Assembly: GCF_023161665.1 (NCBI RefSeq)
Contig: NZ_JALNTW010000007.1
Span: 1 to 64,000, forward strand
DNA from: Shewanella sp. 1CM18E
GTDB lineage: Bacteria > Pseudomonadota > Gammaproteobacteria > Enterobacterales > Shewanellaceae
Length of the DNA stretch: 64,000 bases
Reading direction: 5' to 3'
The notes under the pieces are model-generated. The model did not search any database and was not told the DNA's origin. It saw nothing but the letters and a program-made list of their open reading frames with translations. Positions 16,829-23,325 of the stretch are shown here, piece by piece (within the stretch, counting starts at the first letter, position 1; each line of letters opens with the position of its first letter). The position numbers and the translations under genes were made by a program.

Positions 16829-17869
16829 TTAAAAATCAATTCTAAAACCAATGCTGGCGATAGTGTCATCAAAGTCAGAGTATTGCTTAACATCAAACTG
16901 ACCAATTTCGGTATGCACACGAGTTGACTTTGATAAGCGATATTCTGCACCAACAGCCCAAGTAGACACTTCTGGAACTTCAGTTGCTGCAGCACCTAAC
17001 TTGTCATAAATACGATTGGCAATGACACCAGTACCCGAGTCATCTTGTCCGTATTGCGCTTTTAAGGTCAATTTATCTATTTGATATTTAGCGCTAATGA
17101 TAAAGCCATCGCCATCACGTTGCTGCCAATTATCTTTATTTGGATTTACGATTTCAGAAGTTTGGTACATAGTACCAAGCATCAGGTTGTTATATTTGTA
17201 TTGTGCAACAAGACGAGTACCTTTGATGTCTTCAACACCATCGGTATAAGCAGCAGCTAAATATAAGTCTCCGGTTTTGAATAACTTATCGCCATAGGTT
17301 AATGCAACTTGATAGTTACCATTATCACGACGAACATCATCTTCACCATAGTAGTTATCTTCTAGAATGTAGCTAGCACCGAATTGCAGCTTATTCCATT
17401 TTACTGTTTTATATTCTAGCGAGTCGCCCCAACGCTTATCGCCAGCAAACAAACGGTCATGCTTTAACGAATACATGTCCATCGCATCAGATGTACCTTT
17501 AGCCATCTTAAATACTGGATCGATTCGACCTGCCGCAAGTTGACCTACAGTTGAATGCTTTATCCCTAAAAATGTTGGTCGTGCAGAAAAAGGATTATTG
17601 TTCTTACCTTCGCTAGCTCCGTTAACACCCACTTCGATTTGGTAAAAAACGGTAAAATCTTGATTAAGTGCTGCGTTGCCTTTAACACCTAGACGACTCC
17701 AGTTATTTTCTAGAATCGTGCCGCTCTTACCACTATGAGTTGCACTGCCACTATCTGAATTGGTAACTGAGTAATCAATACGACCATAAAACTTATAAGC
17801 ATCAGCCATAACACTTGGTGAGGCCATAATTGCAGCAGCAAGCAAAGTTAGTTTAACTGTTTTCATCAT
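16829..17869 (-). CDS. Outer-membrane general porin
   Basis: A 346-aa trimeric-type porin of the Gram-negative porin family. A signal peptide (MKTVKLTLLAAAIMASPSVMA) precedes YKFYGRIDYSV, the typical first strand, and the protein ends IASIGFRIDF with the C-terminal Phe used by the BAM complex. The segment VFYQIEVGVNG and the alternating amphipathic strands fit a 16-strand barrel. It lies 80 bp downstream of the flavinylated lipoprotein gene on the same strand, with an inverted repeat between them, so it is probably part of the same redox operon and may admit the substrate. Confidence 0.9.
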   Translation of the reverse strand: MMKTVKLTLLAAAIMASPSVMADAYKFYGRIDYSVTNSDSGSATHSGKSGTILENNWSRLGVKGNAALNQDFTVFYQIEVGVNGASEGKNNNPFSARPTFLGIKHSTVGQLAAGRIDPVFKMAKGTSDAMDMYSLKHDRLFAGDKRWGDSLEYKTVKWNKLQFGASYILEDNYYGEDDVRRDNGNYQVALTYGDKLFKTGDLYLAAAYTDGVEDIKGTRLVAQYKYNNLMLGTMYQTSEIVNPNKDNWQQRDGDGFIISAKYQIDKLTLKAQYGQDDSGTGVIANRIYDKLGAAATEVPEVSTWAVGAEYRLSKSTRVHTEIGQFDVKQYSDFDDTIASIGFRIDF

Positions 17870-17902
17870 CTATTCTCTTAATATATAAAACTTAAAAGTA
17901 AG

Positions 17903-17936
17903 ACGACTCCCTAATACTTCGACATCTGGGAGTCGT
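17903..17936. repeat. 9-bp inverted repeat between lipoprotein and porin genes
   Basis: ACGACTCCC and GGGAGTCGT flank a 16-base loop in the 80-bp gap. There is no T-run in the direction of transcription, so an mRNA processing or stability hairpin that tunes porin expression is more likely than a terminator. Confidence 0.45.
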
Positions 17937-17949
17937 GCATTAGGGCTAT

Positions 17950-19293
17950 TTATTGTTTTTTATGTTCTAGGATCATGCCGTCCTGGCGCATTTCTTTATA
18001 CAAAACCTCAGCTAAATTTAGGTAGTTATCCCAAGAGTTTGAGCGTTTTGTAAAACCTGTTGCGGCGTAACTGCCAGTGTCGCCAGTTGCAGGTAGATCA
18101 TCAATCATGAAAAGTGAGCCACCTTGTTGAAGGTGCGCATTTAGCCCATCGATCATCACGTTAAAACCGATACGAGCTGGCTCTACATAATTAATAGATT
18201 CGTACTTTGATTGACGATAGAATTTCTTTTGTGATGCATCTTTAATTTGAGCCTTTTCATCAGCGAAGATTTCATCATAATGCGCTTTGGTGATTTGCTT
18301 AGTGTCGGTATCAACAACAATACGTAGCATCGCGGTTACACCGGTCCACTTGCCTTTAGCATCCATTAACTTTTCAGCTTGTTGATAGAATCTTTGATTG
18401 CTACCTTCTCCATTAATTTTTGCATGGATCTTTGCAGTTAATGGAACCATCGATTGTTGAATGCTGTTTGATGCACCAGCCACAACATCAATACCTAAAT
18501 ACTTAAGGCGATTTGGCTCTTTAAGCTTGTTGCCTAACTTAGCGTCGTATTCTGGATTTAGGTCAAAAGTTAACTTGTCCTGCTCAACCATTAACTTTTC
18601 CATGGTTAACGCTGACTGAACCCAGGCCGTTCCCTTTTTCTTACCCATTGAAAAATTGTATTCAGACATACGCTTAGGCACGTTTTGGTATAAACGCGTG
18701 TAATAATTTGGACGACCGCTTTCGTTAAACTCAGCAAAAATCACGTTTTTAGCATTGTTAAGTTCAGTAACTATTGCGACACTGCCCATGTGGCCTTGGC
18801 GGAAGCGCGCTTCTTCGTAGTAGTAGTCGCCTTTGATTAAGCCTAGATCCGGTTGAATAGACCACTTAAGTTTAAAGTTATCGTCAGCACTTTCTTCTTT
18901 AGCACCAACCGCAACGTATTCTGGTTGACTACCATTTGCTCTTGGTAAAGAGTTAATAGCTTCTAAAATACCGTTTGAAGAATAGGTTGCGCCAGATACC
19001 GCATCAATTCCCTCATGGCCATTTTTTGCAACGACCTGAGACAATAAACGCTCTGCGTTTAAATACAGTGATTCTGTTTCGTTATGAGATTTGGTTTTTA
19101 TATCTACGATATGACCATTTTCAACTTCAACGGTTAAGGTGATCAGGCCTTTCTTGCCCTTAGCTGACACATCGTGAGTACCATCAGCATACTTGCCCTG
19201 CTCCATTGTTGTTGAACAACCAGCCAGAGTCATGGTGGCAAAAAGTACAGCGCCACTAATTATGGATTTATTGAATGTTTTTAAGCTTTTCAT
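17950..19293 (-). CDS. FMN-binding (flavinylated) lipoprotein
   Basis: A 447-aa secreted redox protein. The lipobox LAGC gives a modified Cys26. Residues 32-115 form an FMN-binding domain (PF04205-like: GTHDVSAKGKKGLITLTV) ending in the ApbE target motif SGATYSS (100-106), where Thr103 should carry covalent FMN. A second, related half follows and has a degenerate copy AGASNS (272-277) without the acceptor pattern, and TAMLRIVVDTDTKQI at about 333 suggests repeated folds. It is divergent from apbE, which would flavinylate it, and upstream of a porin. No cytochrome or dehydrogenase domain is present, so the electron partner is unknown. It may act in periplasmic or outer-membrane electron transfer. 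Confidence 0.85.
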   Translation of the reverse strand: MKSLKTFNKSIISGAVLFATMTLAGCSTTMEQGKYADGTHDVSAKGKKGLITLTVEVENGHIVDIKTKSHNETESLYLNAERLLSQVVAKNGHEGIDAVSGATYSSNGILEAINSLPRANGSQPEYVAVGAKEESADDNFKLKWSIQPDLGLIKGDYYYEEARFRQGHMGSVAIVTELNNAKNVIFAEFNESGRPNYYTRLYQNVPKRMSEYNFSMGKKKGTAWVQSALTMEKLMVEQDKLTFDLNPEYDAKLGNKLKEPNRLKYLGIDVVAGASNSIQQSMVPLTAKIHAKINGEGSNQRFYQQAEKLMDAKGKWTGVTAMLRIVVDTDTKQITKAHYDEIFADEKAQIKDASQKKFYRQSKYESINYVEPARIGFNVMIDGLNAHLQQGGSLFMIDDLPATGDTGSYAATGFTKRSNSWDNYLNLAEVLYKEMRQDGMILEHKKQ

Positions 19294-19355
19294 TTTGTCA
19301 GCCTTAATGGGTTATTTCATTAAGGCCAGAATATAAGGATTAAATTTCTCCACAA

Positions 19356-19371
19356 TTGCGGAAATCCGCAA
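19356..19371. promoter_or_regulatory. Predicted response-regulator operator 1
   Basis: TTGCGGA-AA-TCCGCAA is a perfect palindrome in the divergent region between the flavinylated lipoprotein and apbE. A near copy lies upstream of the sensor kinase gene at 20835-20850. The TtrR-like regulator encoded next to it is the natural candidate binder. Confidence 0.6.
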
Positions 19372-19466
19372 CTGGCATATCTAAGTTGCAGTTTTTTGAC
19401 TTGGTTAACAATTATTAATACCGCAGATTATAATTTTAGATAATTATGTTATTCATCTAACCCATA

Positions 19467-20675
19467 ATGTCATTGTTAACTTTTATTATGAAGCTTACCT
19501 CCATATTCATTTTAGTATCTAGTTTGTCTTGTGGGTTTATCTACAACGCTCAGGCTTTAGAAAATAAAGATTTACCTGTAGCACCAGACTTTGAAGTTAT
19601 CAAAGTCGATACCAATGGGCAGCCGTACCAATGTAACAGCAATGCTATAGTTAGCACTAAGAATGGTGTATCTAATTTAACAACGCTGAAGTACTTTGGT
19701 ACATCGATTACGATTGATATCTATGACAATAATATTGATAACCTTGATAAGGTATTTTGCAATAGCTTAAATGTTATTCAGGAATATCACTACTTAGCAT
19801 CTAATTATAGTACTTACCCTCATGTTACAAATATAAAGTCGATTAATAATGCGCCAGAAAAATTACATCATATCGACCCTAAGTTAACCGAGCTAATTGA
19901 AGCAAGTATAGATTGGCATGCCAAGTCTGATGGTTATTTTAATATCGCACTTTCCCCTGTTATTGATATTTGGCGTAGTTATCGAGCTCAGTGCAAGGGG
20001 CAACGCAAGCTAGATGATAAGTGCGAAATTCCAACTAAAACTGAATTAAGCTCAGTCAAGCATTTAATAAATATAGATAATATAAAGTTAGATACAGTTA
20101 ACAACACCATACAAATGCAAGCAGGAATGAGTATCGATTTAGGCGGTGTGGCTAAAGGCTGGATGGCTGAAATGGTATATCGTCAGCTAAAAGCTGATGG
20201 TATTAACAACTTTATGATCAACGCTGGCGGCAATATTCGCCATTTTGGAGTACACCCTGAAGGCCGAAATTTTACAACAGCTATCGAAGATCCAATCTGC
20301 AAGAAGTTTAATAACTCTTTAAGCCAATGTTTAGATTTTAATGGCCAATACCATGAAGTAGTGACAGGACGAGATATAAGCTTGGTCTCTAGTGGTAATT
20401 ACTTACGCTATTATCGAGTACAAGGAAAAGAATATCACCATATAATCAATCCAAAAACGCTTTTTCCGAAAGCAACTGGTGTTGCAACAACGGTTGTAAT
20501 GAATAGCAACCATATTTATGCAGATATTATTTCTACAATGCTATTTTTAATGCCACTCGAAAGCGCCGTTAAATATGTTAACGAACATGATGAAGTTGAA
20601 GCTATTTGGTATTTGAATGATGATGGTGACAAAGTCATTAGTAATAACTTCAATAAATATAAACTTGAACTGTAA
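19467..20675 (+). CDS. apbE: ApbE: FAD:protein FMN transferase
   Basis: Transfers FMN from FAD to a Thr in extracytoplasmic FMN-binding domains. The 402-aa protein has a signal peptide (best from Met8, ending AQA), and the ApbE blocks DGYFNIALSPVIDIW (155-169), IDLGGVAKGWMAE (223-235), NAGGNIRHFG (252-261) and HHIINPKT, which form the Mg and FAD site. It is somewhat longer than E. coli ApbE because of Cys-containing insertions near residues 175-190 and 275-290. No good ribosome site is seen at ATG 19467 or ATG 19488. The divergent neighbour with SGATYSS is its obvious substrate. Confidence 0.92.
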   Translation: MSLLTFIMKLTSIFILVSSLSCGFIYNAQALENKDLPVAPDFEVIKVDTNGQPYQCNSNAIVSTKNGVSNLTTLKYFGTSITIDIYDNNIDNLDKVFCNSLNVIQEYHYLASNYSTYPHVTNIKSINNAPEKLHHIDPKLTELIEASIDWHAKSDGYFNIALSPVIDIWRSYRAQCKGQRKLDDKCEIPTKTELSSVKHLINIDNIKLDTVNNTIQMQAGMSIDLGGVAKGWMAEMVYRQLKADGINNFMINAGGNIRHFGVHPEGRNFTTAIEDPICKKFNNSLSQCLDFNGQYHEVVTGRDISLVSSGNYLRYYRVQGKEYHHIINPKTLFPKATGVATTVVMNSNHIYADIISTMLFLMPLESAVKYVNEHDEVEAIWYLNDDGDKVISNNFNKYKLEL

Positions 20676-20707
20676 ATGCCTTATTATTTTTATATTTAAC
20701 TTTCCAC

Positions 20708-20735
20708 CACGGCTGATTAATACAAATCAGCCGTG
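20708..20735 (+). terminator. Hairpin after apbE
   Basis: CACGGCTGATT and AATCAGCCGTG form an 11-bp stem 33 bp after the apbE stop; the following run is weak (GAAATATAAAA), so it may be a poor terminator. Confidence 0.5.
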
Positions 20736-20834
20736 AAATATAAAACAAAATTATATCTATCACGATTAACAGCAAGTAATAAGAAATATAAAATCTGCTG
20801 TAAGATTATAATTAACATTAAATATTTATCCTGT

Positions 20835-20850
20835 AGCGGTTTTCCGCAAC
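20835..20850. promoter_or_regulatory. Predicted response-regulator operator 2
   Basis: TAGCGGTTTTCCGCAA; on the other strand TTGCGGAAAACCGCTA, 14 of 16 positions equal to the palindrome at 19356-19371. It lies about 100 bp upstream of the sensor kinase, so the two-component genes are probably autoregulated. Confidence 0.55.
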
Positions 20851-20951
20851 ACTTTCAATTTTGTGACTCGCTTCACTTAGCACGCTGTTTATTTCTACAA
20901 ACTTCTATAATGAAGTCATAATACACAGGTATTTTCTCGATAAAGCCACAA

Positions 20952-22724
20952 ATGATAAAAACTTATCCTAAATCTATCGCTATCGCATGCCTTTCGTTAT
21001 TTGCATTCAATAGCTACGCCTTAGCTCAGAGCGATCCTATTCGAGTGGGCGTATTGGCTTTTACCCATACAGACAGCGTAACTCAGCGCTGGCTTCCTAC
21101 AGTTGCTAGAATAGAAAAAGATCTTAATAGACCATTTGAGTTAGTTGCATTAACGCCAAGCGAATTAGACTCTAGCGTCGCTGAAGGAAAACTCGATTTT
21201 TTAATCACCAATGCTTTGACAGGTGTAAGCTATAAAAAGGATTTTGGCACCACGAGTTTGCTGACATTAGTCCCGCAAGGAAATAACGAGCCAACACGCT
21301 CGGTTGGCTCTGCGCTTATCACACGCGTTGATGAGCAAGTAAACAGTTTTACCGATCTAAAATCATTAACCGCAGTTTCTACTGACAAACAAGCTTTTGG
21401 TGGCTTTCAAATCATGGCCGGTGAAATGGCGCACAATCAGCTCAACCCATTTAAAGATTTTAAGAGTCTTGAATTTGTCGGTTTTCCACAACAAAAATTA
21501 TTACAACTGGTTATTAGTGGCAAAGCTGATATGGCGATTTTACCAACATGTGTATTAGAGCAAGCACTAAGCAGTGGATATATTCCAGCTAATAGCCTCA
21601 AGGTAGTACTCACTAAACCGACTACGAGTTTTCACTGCCAAACTTCTAGTGAATTATACCCCTATTATTCATTTTCTAAGTTAGGCAAAACCGACCACCG
21701 CCTAGCCACTGAGGTTATTAAGTCACTGTTAAATATAAAACCTAGCGACCAAGCTGCGGTAATTGGCCGTTATGAAGCCTGGTCTGCTACCGTAAATGAT
21801 AGCCATGTATTTACACTGTTAAAGCAATTACAACAGTGGCCTTTTGTGACCAATTGGACCTCTATATTCAGAAGCGCCATGCCTTGGGCAATCGTCATTT
21901 CAATTTTGCTGTTTTTCGGCTACGTCCACCACCTACGCGTGAAAAGAATGGTGGTTATTCGTACTCGCGATCTACAGCAAGAAATCACTCAACATACACA
22001 AACCCAAAAAGCATTACTTGAGCAAACCAAGCAGTTTTATAAAGCTCAACGTGTTTTGTTAACCGGGGAAATGGCTTCAGGCATTGCTCACGAGTTAAAT
22101 CAGCCTTTAGCTGGGATCCGCTATCTCACTCAAGGATGCATTTACCGTTTATCTGACGAGCAAACAGAGCTTAAAGAAGCGATGAACAAGGCAATACAAC
22201 AAGTAGATAGAGCCCAGTCAACGATAAAGCGCTTTAGGCATTTTTGTCAGCAACCTAGTGTTATGACTGAGTGCAACTTAAACCTAGTGTTAGAAGAAAC
22301 ACTTAGTTTGATGGCACCCGAGTTTCTTAGAATGCATTTGACGCCCAAGCTTGTCAGTGAGCCGGTGGATTTAATTGCCGACCCTAGCCTGTTACAGCAA
22401 GTATTTGTCAATATCATCCGTAATGCATTAGATGCTATGGCTGACGCAGAACAACCTTATCTTGCAATAAGTCTGATAAAGCATCCTCACAAGGTCACTA
22501 TCGCTTTTGAAGACCATGGTACTGGTTTAAGTGAAACCGCGTTAGAAAGGCTCTTTTTTCCGTTTGAAACCTCAAAAGAGAATGGCTTAGGTCTCGGCAT
22601 GATAATTTGTAAACGGATTATTGAAGAGCATGATGGTGAAATCTACGCAGTAAACAACCTAGATGAACACCAGCAGGTTACAGGGTTAACCATCTCTATT
22701 TCTTTACCGATCAAGGAGTCTTAA
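20952..22724 (+). CDS. TtrS-like sensor histidine kinase
   Basis: A 590-aa inner-membrane kinase. A signal (1-25) leads into a periplasmic PhnD/TtrS-type binding domain (about 30-295), one membrane segment (309-327), a coiled region, a HisKA domain with phospho-acceptor His380 in GIAHELNQPLAG, and an HATPase domain (NIIRNALDAM; GLGLGMIICKRI). TtrS senses tetrathionate in Salmonella, but the ligand pocket here cannot be read and the neighbours are a flavoprotein cluster, not tetrathionate reductase, so another electron acceptor is likely. The response-regulator gene starts 1 nt after its stop. Confidence 0.9.
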   Translation: MIKTYPKSIAIACLSLFAFNSYALAQSDPIRVGVLAFTHTDSVTQRWLPTVARIEKDLNRPFELVALTPSELDSSVAEGKLDFLITNALTGVSYKKDFGTTSLLTLVPQGNNEPTRSVGSALITRVDEQVNSFTDLKSLTAVSTDKQAFGGFQIMAGEMAHNQLNPFKDFKSLEFVGFPQQKLLQLVISGKADMAILPTCVLEQALSSGYIPANSLKVVLTKPTTSFHCQTSSELYPYYSFSKLGKTDHRLATEVIKSLLNIKPSDQAAVIGRYEAWSATVNDSHVFTLLKQLQQWPFVTNWTSIFRSAMPWAIVISILLFFGYVHHLRVKRMVVIRTRDLQQEITQHTQTQKALLEQTKQFYKAQRVLLTGEMASGIAHELNQPLAGIRYLTQGCIYRLSDEQTELKEAMNKAIQQVDRAQSTIKRFRHFCQQPSVMTECNLNLVLEETLSLMAPEFLRMHLTPKLVSEPVDLIADPSLLQQVFVNIIRNALDAMADAEQPYLAISLIKHPHKVTIAFEDHGTGLSETALERLFFPFETSKENGLGLGMIICKRIIEEHDGEIYAVNNLDEHQQVTGLTISISLPIKES

Positions 22725-22725
22725 A

Positions 22726-23325
22726 TTGACCCAACTGTATCTTGTTGATGACGATCAAGCAGTGCTAGATTCTTTAACTTGGATGTTAAACGGCCTCGGC
22801 TATCAACCTCAAGGTTTTTTATCTGCCGATAATTTTTTAAAGCAGGTTGATATTCATAGCGAAGGTATTGCAATACTTGATGTGCAAATGCCAGGTATGG
22901 ACGGTAGCGCTCTACTCAGTCATTTGACTAAGTCACAAAGCCCTATCGCAGTGATCATGTTAAGCGGTCACGGCAATATCGCCATGGCAGTACAAGCGAT
23001 TCAAAAAGGTGCGTTAGATTTTTTAGAAAAGCCGGTTGATGGTGACAAACTAGTCAATTTACTTGAACAAGCAAACTTGCAAACCAAACTTAATGTACAG
23101 CGCAAAACCGAGCGAGATCTCCTCAGTTGCAAATTGGCTACGCTAACAGCCAGAGAACTTGAGGTGATGGAGAAAGTACTTGAAGGCAAGCTTAATAAAG
23201 TGATTGCTGCAGAGCTGAATATTGCCCAAAGAACATTAGAGTTACACCGTCAAAAAGTGATGCAAAAGATGCAGGTCAGCAACGTAGCTGAACTTGCCTT
23301 TTTAATGGGTAAAAATGTCGAATAA
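22726..23325 (+). CDS. FixJ/TtrR-like response regulator
   Basis: A 199-aa transcription regulator. The receiver domain has the acidic DDD at 8-10, phospho-acceptor Asp52 in LDVQMPGMDG and Lys about 102 (EKPVDG). The C-terminal LuxR-type helix-turn-helix is LTARELEVMEKVLEGKLNKVIA... through residues 140-195. It starts with TTG; the AAGGAG ribosome site lies inside the kinase 3' end, indicating translational coupling. It should act on the two related TTGCGGAAA palindromes upstream of this operon and of the flavinylated lipoprotein/apbE pair. Confidence 0.92.
   Translation: MTQLYLVDDDQAVLDSLTWMLNGLGYQPQGFLSADNFLKQVDIHSEGIAILDVQMPGMDGSALLSHLTKSQSPIAVIMLSGHGNIAMAVQAIQKGALDFLEKPVDGDKLVNLLEQANLQTKLNVQRKTERDLLSCKLATLTARELEVMEKVLEGKLNKVIAAELNIAQRTLELHRQKVMQKMQVSNVAELAFLMGKNVE

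Follow-up and report, generated by a model that had tools for sequence, protein, structure and literature searches.

We analysed a window of 64,000 nucleotides from Shewanella sp. 1CM18E (contig C39 of the 4.94-Mb genome), in which five open reading frames (ORFs) at positions 16829–23325 (~6.5 kb) encode a porin and a lipoprotein on the minus strand and an ApbE-type protein, a sensor kinase, and a response regulator on the plus strand. The outer-membrane porin (346 amino acids; 16829–17869) matches Porin_4 (1.5e-38). The lipoprotein (447 amino acids; 17950–19293) has a lipobox with Cys26, a flavin mononucleotide (FMN)-binding domain, FMN_bind, with the motif DAVSGAT (Thr103), and a C-terminal region at residues ~139–447. 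The ApbE-type flavin adenine dinucleotide:protein FMN transferase (402 amino acids; 19467–20675) matches PF02424 (6e-65; 219.8 bits against a cut-off of 25.6) and aligns with FmnB (7esa) over residues 77–384. The remaining two genes encode a TtrS-like sensor histidine kinase with a PhnD-like periplasmic domain (590 amino acids; 20952–22724) and a FixJ/TtrR-like response regulator (199 amino acids; 22726–23325; TTG start). The ORFs and Pfam domains thus confirm the adjoining porin, SGATYSS lipoprotein, ApbE, and two-component pair described in the initial annotation.

Conservation of the five-gene unit

Named genomes scanned with a four-row lipoprotein alignment yielded 31 loci; L016 and L017, whose contigs equal in length those of L026 and L039, were excluded from the count. 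In 28 of these loci all five genes fall inside the retrieved flanks, with protein identities of 43–99% (45–99% for the porin); the closest named relative of the lipoprotein, from Shewanella pneumatophori, is 99% identical. The initial annotation had staked its claim on the neighbourhood recurring elsewhere, and it does so, in three gene orders: that of Shewanella; one with the porin between the kinase and ApbE (L036–L038); and one, in L040–L042 and L044, with lipoprotein–ApbE followed at some distance by porin–kinase–regulator. Three loci are incomplete: a contig end cuts off L028 at its start; only the lipoprotein and ApbE are present in L043, whose contig ends 4.6 kb past ApbE; and L046, from a genome titled Mycoplasmatota bacterium zrk6, has the lipoprotein alone.

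Flanking genes, with antisense ORFs over the five set aside, are common to at most 16 of the 31 loci, all of them Shewanella, compared with 28 for the complete set of five; the linkage exceeds chance. In the retrieved flanks (up to 10 kb), no sixth sense-strand gene was seen to accompany the five repeatedly across Shewanella and Ferrimonas. The cluster is an accessory unit. The lipoprotein has matches in 12 of 295 sampled genomes of the order, near full length in only four (the genome of the window included) and confined to the FMN_bind part in the remaining eight, while its C-terminal region is found in three of 398 sampled genomes of the phylum.

Some of the records deserve separate mention. 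L038, titled Marinobacter nauticus DP3N21-5, has a lipoprotein and a gene order resembling those of Ferrimonas balearica, and is perhaps mislabelled. The L046 lipoprotein (L046:9878–11293) is 59% identical to that of the window; ApbE, the porin, and the kinase pair are not nearby, and two ApbE genes lie elsewhere in that genome, with horizontal transfer as a possible origin. Phage or plasmid cargo was considered and rejected, viral contigs having given no relative. One plasmid and four phage records matched, at 26–40% identity; four of the five are named Enterococcus, and the fifth, a phage, matches the FMN_bind part only. Records OR846604, OR846597, and PQ520023, deposited as Enterococcus phages, hold lipoprotein homologues and may contain host DNA.

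The lipoprotein, ApbE, and the porin

The FMN_bind domain spans residues 46–115 of the lipoprotein (5.3e-14; 53.1 bits against a cut-off of 22). The lipobox reads LAGC and the flavinylation motif DAVSGATYSS; the single Cys is the one to be lipidated, so that, as judged from its sequence, the window lipoprotein could not accommodate heme c (the Cys count of its relatives is one, two, or, in an over-extended ORF, six). By the +2 rule, Ser or Ala after the lipobox Cys directs a lipoprotein to the outer membrane. Since one or the other follows this Cys in 27 of 28 aligned rows, the row of L046 not covering the position, the lipoprotein would be sorted there.

Residues 97–103, DAVSGAT, fit the rule for flavinylation by ApbE, D-x-x-[S/T]-G-A-[S/T], as given in PMC12052999, and Thr103 is invariant in the 28 rows; the lipoprotein is predicted to carry covalent FMN. 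A second candidate site, D269-VVAGAS275, departs from the rule only at the fourth place, which is Ala. The domain, present at four places in the genome, and the SGAT motif are shared with NqrC and RnfG; as identities for the lipoprotein these two were rejected (13.1 bits against an NCBIfam cut-off of 336, and 17.2 against 205, respectively). In an AlphaFold2 model built from 26 rows, with a predicted local distance difference test score (pLDDT) of 62, the predicted FMN_bind domain matches 8p2b (Z 10.5; root-mean-square deviation, rmsd, 2.0; 82 aligned).

Residues 139–447, two thirds of the lipoprotein, have no Pfam match. Many of them are invariant, including D269, AGASNS (272–277), the strings DE and FAD around 340–345, and RQSKY (360–364). 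Relatives of this region occur in an Enterococcus faecalis lipoprotein (29% identity) and in two proteins of G986, a genome of the phylum of L046, where two of 392 sampled genomes matched, that of L046 included. DxxSGAT is present in the Enterococcus protein and in one of the G986 proteins, within a stretch that stays below the Pfam cut-off for FMN_bind; in the other G986 protein no motif of this type was seen. The G986 lipoproteins lie at L090:1102–2013 and L091:1492–2568, one with a bare DIVSGAT stretch.

A separate model of the C-terminal region (25 rows) has a pLDDT of 67 and a predicted template modelling score of 0.70. Both models place strands and then helices in each of three modules; comparison of module profiles, a check on the idea of tandem FMN_bind modules, found nothing, the alignments being too shallow. 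The C-terminal profile has no match among solved chains by sequence up to E 10, and Foldseek searches with the full and the C-terminal models gave nothing at E ≤ 0.001. The best structural matches are weak: beyond FMN_bind, the full model resembles an aldehyde oxidase over residues 301–439 (Z 6.4, rmsd 3.3, 95 aligned), and the third module of the C-terminal model resembles 3o6u (Z 5.0, rmsd 3.4, 103 aligned).

Four Cys residues (56, 98, 176, and 186) are invariant in the 31 sequences of the cluster ApbE; the other ApbE of the genome adjoins ORFs read as nqr genes. The porin is 31–41% identical to three paralogues of its own genome. Its residues 97–150 have a net charge of +3, versus −1, 0, and +2 in the paralogues, a difference too small for an anion-selective pore to be proposed.

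Sensing and regulation

The kinase contains Phosphonate-bd (3.7e-26), HisKA, and HATPase_c domains, and the regulator consists of a receiver (Response_reg, 9.5e-25) and a LuxR-type domain (GerE, 1.7e-17). Their best NCBIfam models are TtrS (303.2 bits) and TtrR (192.3 bits), both scores lying below the curated cut-offs (750 and 290), so identity with TtrSR was rejected. Of the TtrS-type periplasmic domain with a specific ligand proposed initially, the TtrS-like character and the PhnD-like domain stand, whereas membership of TtrS proper does not; the distance of the kinase score from that cut-off makes it plausible that the ligand is not tetrathionate.

Identity with ThsSR was likewise rejected by score, a ThsSR-like pair being present elsewhere in the genome (L067:3917–10739, on contig G000:C40). 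It adjoins phsABC-like ORFs, read by eye from their translations as a molybdoenzyme, an iron-sulfur protein, and a membrane subunit. The cluster kinase and the ThsS-like kinase share 27% identity, and Cys200 and Cys229, invariant in 30 cluster kinases, are also found in the latter; residues 31–204 match ArrX structures (E 7.2e-6). Because of this resemblance to the ThsS-like kinase and to ArrX, sequence comparison suggests a small oxyanion or a sulfur compound as the likeliest ligand.

Upstream of the lipoprotein lies the palindrome TTGCGGAAATCCGCAA (19356–19371, no strand assigned), a putative operator of lipoprotein–porin and perhaps also of ApbE. For each upstream region, the best site was scored by mismatches to the 12 defined bases of the consensus TTGCGG-N4-CCGCAA. 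The lipoprotein palindrome has at most three mismatches in 24 of 30 loci and none in 16 (L028, whose contig starts there, was dropped), counts that come from related, not independent, loci and whose shuffle control preserves base composition only. Its distance from the codon of the lipobox Cys is 153–155 bases in 16 of the 24 loci. The site is absent from six loci: L046 and the Ferrimonas loci L040–L044. A putative second operator, the near-palindrome TAGCGGTTTTCCGCAA (20834–20849, no strand assigned), precedes the kinase, and a related site with at most three mismatches, often TAGTGGTTTTCCGCAA, recurs before the kinase in 22 of 29 loci (no shuffles were made for these). The operators being conserved, the pair very likely controls the lipoprotein and the porin.

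The kinase upstream sequence also contains a CRP-like site, TGTGACTCGCTTCACT (20862–20877, no strand assigned), with one mismatch to TGTGA-N6-TCACA. Sites with up to two mismatches to the CRP motif precede the kinase in 20 of 29 loci and the lipoprotein in 26 of 30, compared with about two per set in shuffles; for FNR-like sites, scored without a shuffle control, the best matches mostly have three or more mismatches. A similar pairing is published for ThsR: its operator, TATGTGGTTTACCACAAT, is described as FixJ-like, and a CRP site serves the same promoter (PMC5408782). The regulator would also control its own operon, together with CRP.

The pattern TWGCGGN4CCGCWA occurs at three places in the genome, two of them in the cluster and the third in a region where no redox gene was noticed, and the reversed control pattern occurs at two. 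With a looser pattern there are six matches, of which the cluster contributes two, against four for the reversed control. No wider regulon is claimed. Four further FixJ-like palindromes were recorded, at G000:C39:116648–116663 and 125693–125708, and at G000:C22:49245–49260 and 449885–449900.

Electron flow and alternative explanations

On balance, we favour, by a modest degree, the cluster as a ligand-induced, flavin-based periplasmic electron-transfer or reductase module. From the observed genes, linkage, operator-like sites, and motif we infer flavinylation, a substrate, and an electron donor, in the following order of events. The PhnD-like periplasmic domain of the kinase would bind a small anion, an oxyanion or a sulfur compound being the likeliest; the phosphorylated regulator would bind the TTGCGG-N4-CCGCAA sites and, with CRP, turn on the lipoprotein, the porin, and its own operon; and the porin would let the compound in. 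ApbE would attach FMN to Thr103 of the lipoprotein, sorted by its lipobox to the outer membrane. The FMN would be reduced by electrons of the quinol pool, probably via a NapC/NirT-type protein and periplasmic cytochromes, and the C-terminal region would bind and reduce the compound or pass the electrons onward. The initial annotation had electrons passing without heme. This is true of the cluster, which encodes no cytochrome, but not necessarily of the electron flow: four genes of the genome encode quinol dehydrogenases of the NapC/NirT type, which could feed the lipoprotein, and heme is therefore likely to stand upstream of the flavin.

The C-terminal region could itself be the reductase. A stronger form of this proposal, that it represents a new family of flavin-dependent reductases, which uses the N-terminally tethered FMN, has no heme or metal of its own, and catalyses the last step of electron transfer to an unrecognised respiratory acceptor sensed by the kinase, is offered only tentatively. 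Several observations weigh against the module as outlined. The porin may be dispensable, since it alone of the five genes is absent from the 19.5 kb of L018, a locus of another genus in the family. The five Ferrimonas loci L040–L044 read SGST instead of SGAT, and none of them has the lipoprotein operator; the second site is missing from seven of the 29 kinase upstream regions; and confidence is low in both models of the lipoprotein (pLDDT 62 and 67).

Among other explanations, extracellular electron transfer of the PplA type in a Gram-negative setting, with the lipoprotein delivering electrons to external acceptors or to shuttles, and with the sensed compound as no more than a cue, seems rather unlikely, although less so than the others. 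The relatives of the C-terminal region are SGAT-motif lipoproteins of Enterococcus and Mycoplasmatota-like genomes, and PplA moves electrons outward via covalent FMN (PMC12052999); however, that the unit includes a specific kinase and a porin points to a small compound in solution, and the conserved C-terminal region exceeds the needs of a mere electron carrier. Linked genes for sensing and response would be expected equally if the flavin lipoprotein, on the signal of the kinase, reduced a harmful oxidant or repaired oxidised envelope proteins, but a dedicated porin and CRP-like sites would be less expected for defence than for the use of a compound, and we regard such a role as improbable. 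Least probable of all is that the lipoprotein is neither an enzyme nor an electron carrier, and instead provides redox input to the kinase: while its tight linkage to the kinase pair and the lack of a known reductase in the unit agree with this, the conserved operator puts it downstream of the regulator, and the kinase already possesses a periplasmic domain for ligand binding.

The favoured flavin-based module has parallels in several known systems. Listeria PplA and enterococcal Cad (the cAD1 precursor), with ApbE/FmnB, likewise combine a lipoprotein carrying the ApbE motif with a linked apbE gene (PMC7074142, PMC12052999); these are Gram-positive, and Cad adjoins NADH dehydrogenase and quinone genes (PMC7074142), whereas the Shewanella cluster has a porin, a two-component pair, and the Pfam-unmatched C-terminal region. 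By eye, with no family search, no type II NADH dehydrogenase or quinone genes were noticed among the ORFs at 12–28 kb or the recurrent neighbours listed. In ThsSR–phsABC and TtrSR–ttr, a PhnD-like kinase and a FixJ-like regulator similarly lie beside the system that they control (PMC5408782), but the Shewanella unit has no molybdoenzyme. A PhnD-like periplasmic domain also controls an adjacent redox system in arsenic sensing by AioXSR and ArrXSR (PMC5908839); in the Shewanella kinase, unlike these, the domain is fused to the kinase. No description of such a module was found among the open-licence papers listed in term searches, as judged by titles and the openings of abstracts, and a term search of the main texts of PMC8238504 and PMC10979944, on flavinylation systems, returned neither "porin" nor "lipoprotein."

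A ligand-specific sensor kinase adjoining a redox system often indicates the substrate of that system. Here this class of sensor, with its operator-like sites, is joined to a flavin lipoprotein, and no molybdoenzyme, heme, or iron-sulfur protein was seen in the conserved unit. Naming the sensed compound would possibly reveal a new electron acceptor of marine Shewanella, and would give a first function to a Pfam-unmatched protein region that recurs in distant bacteria.

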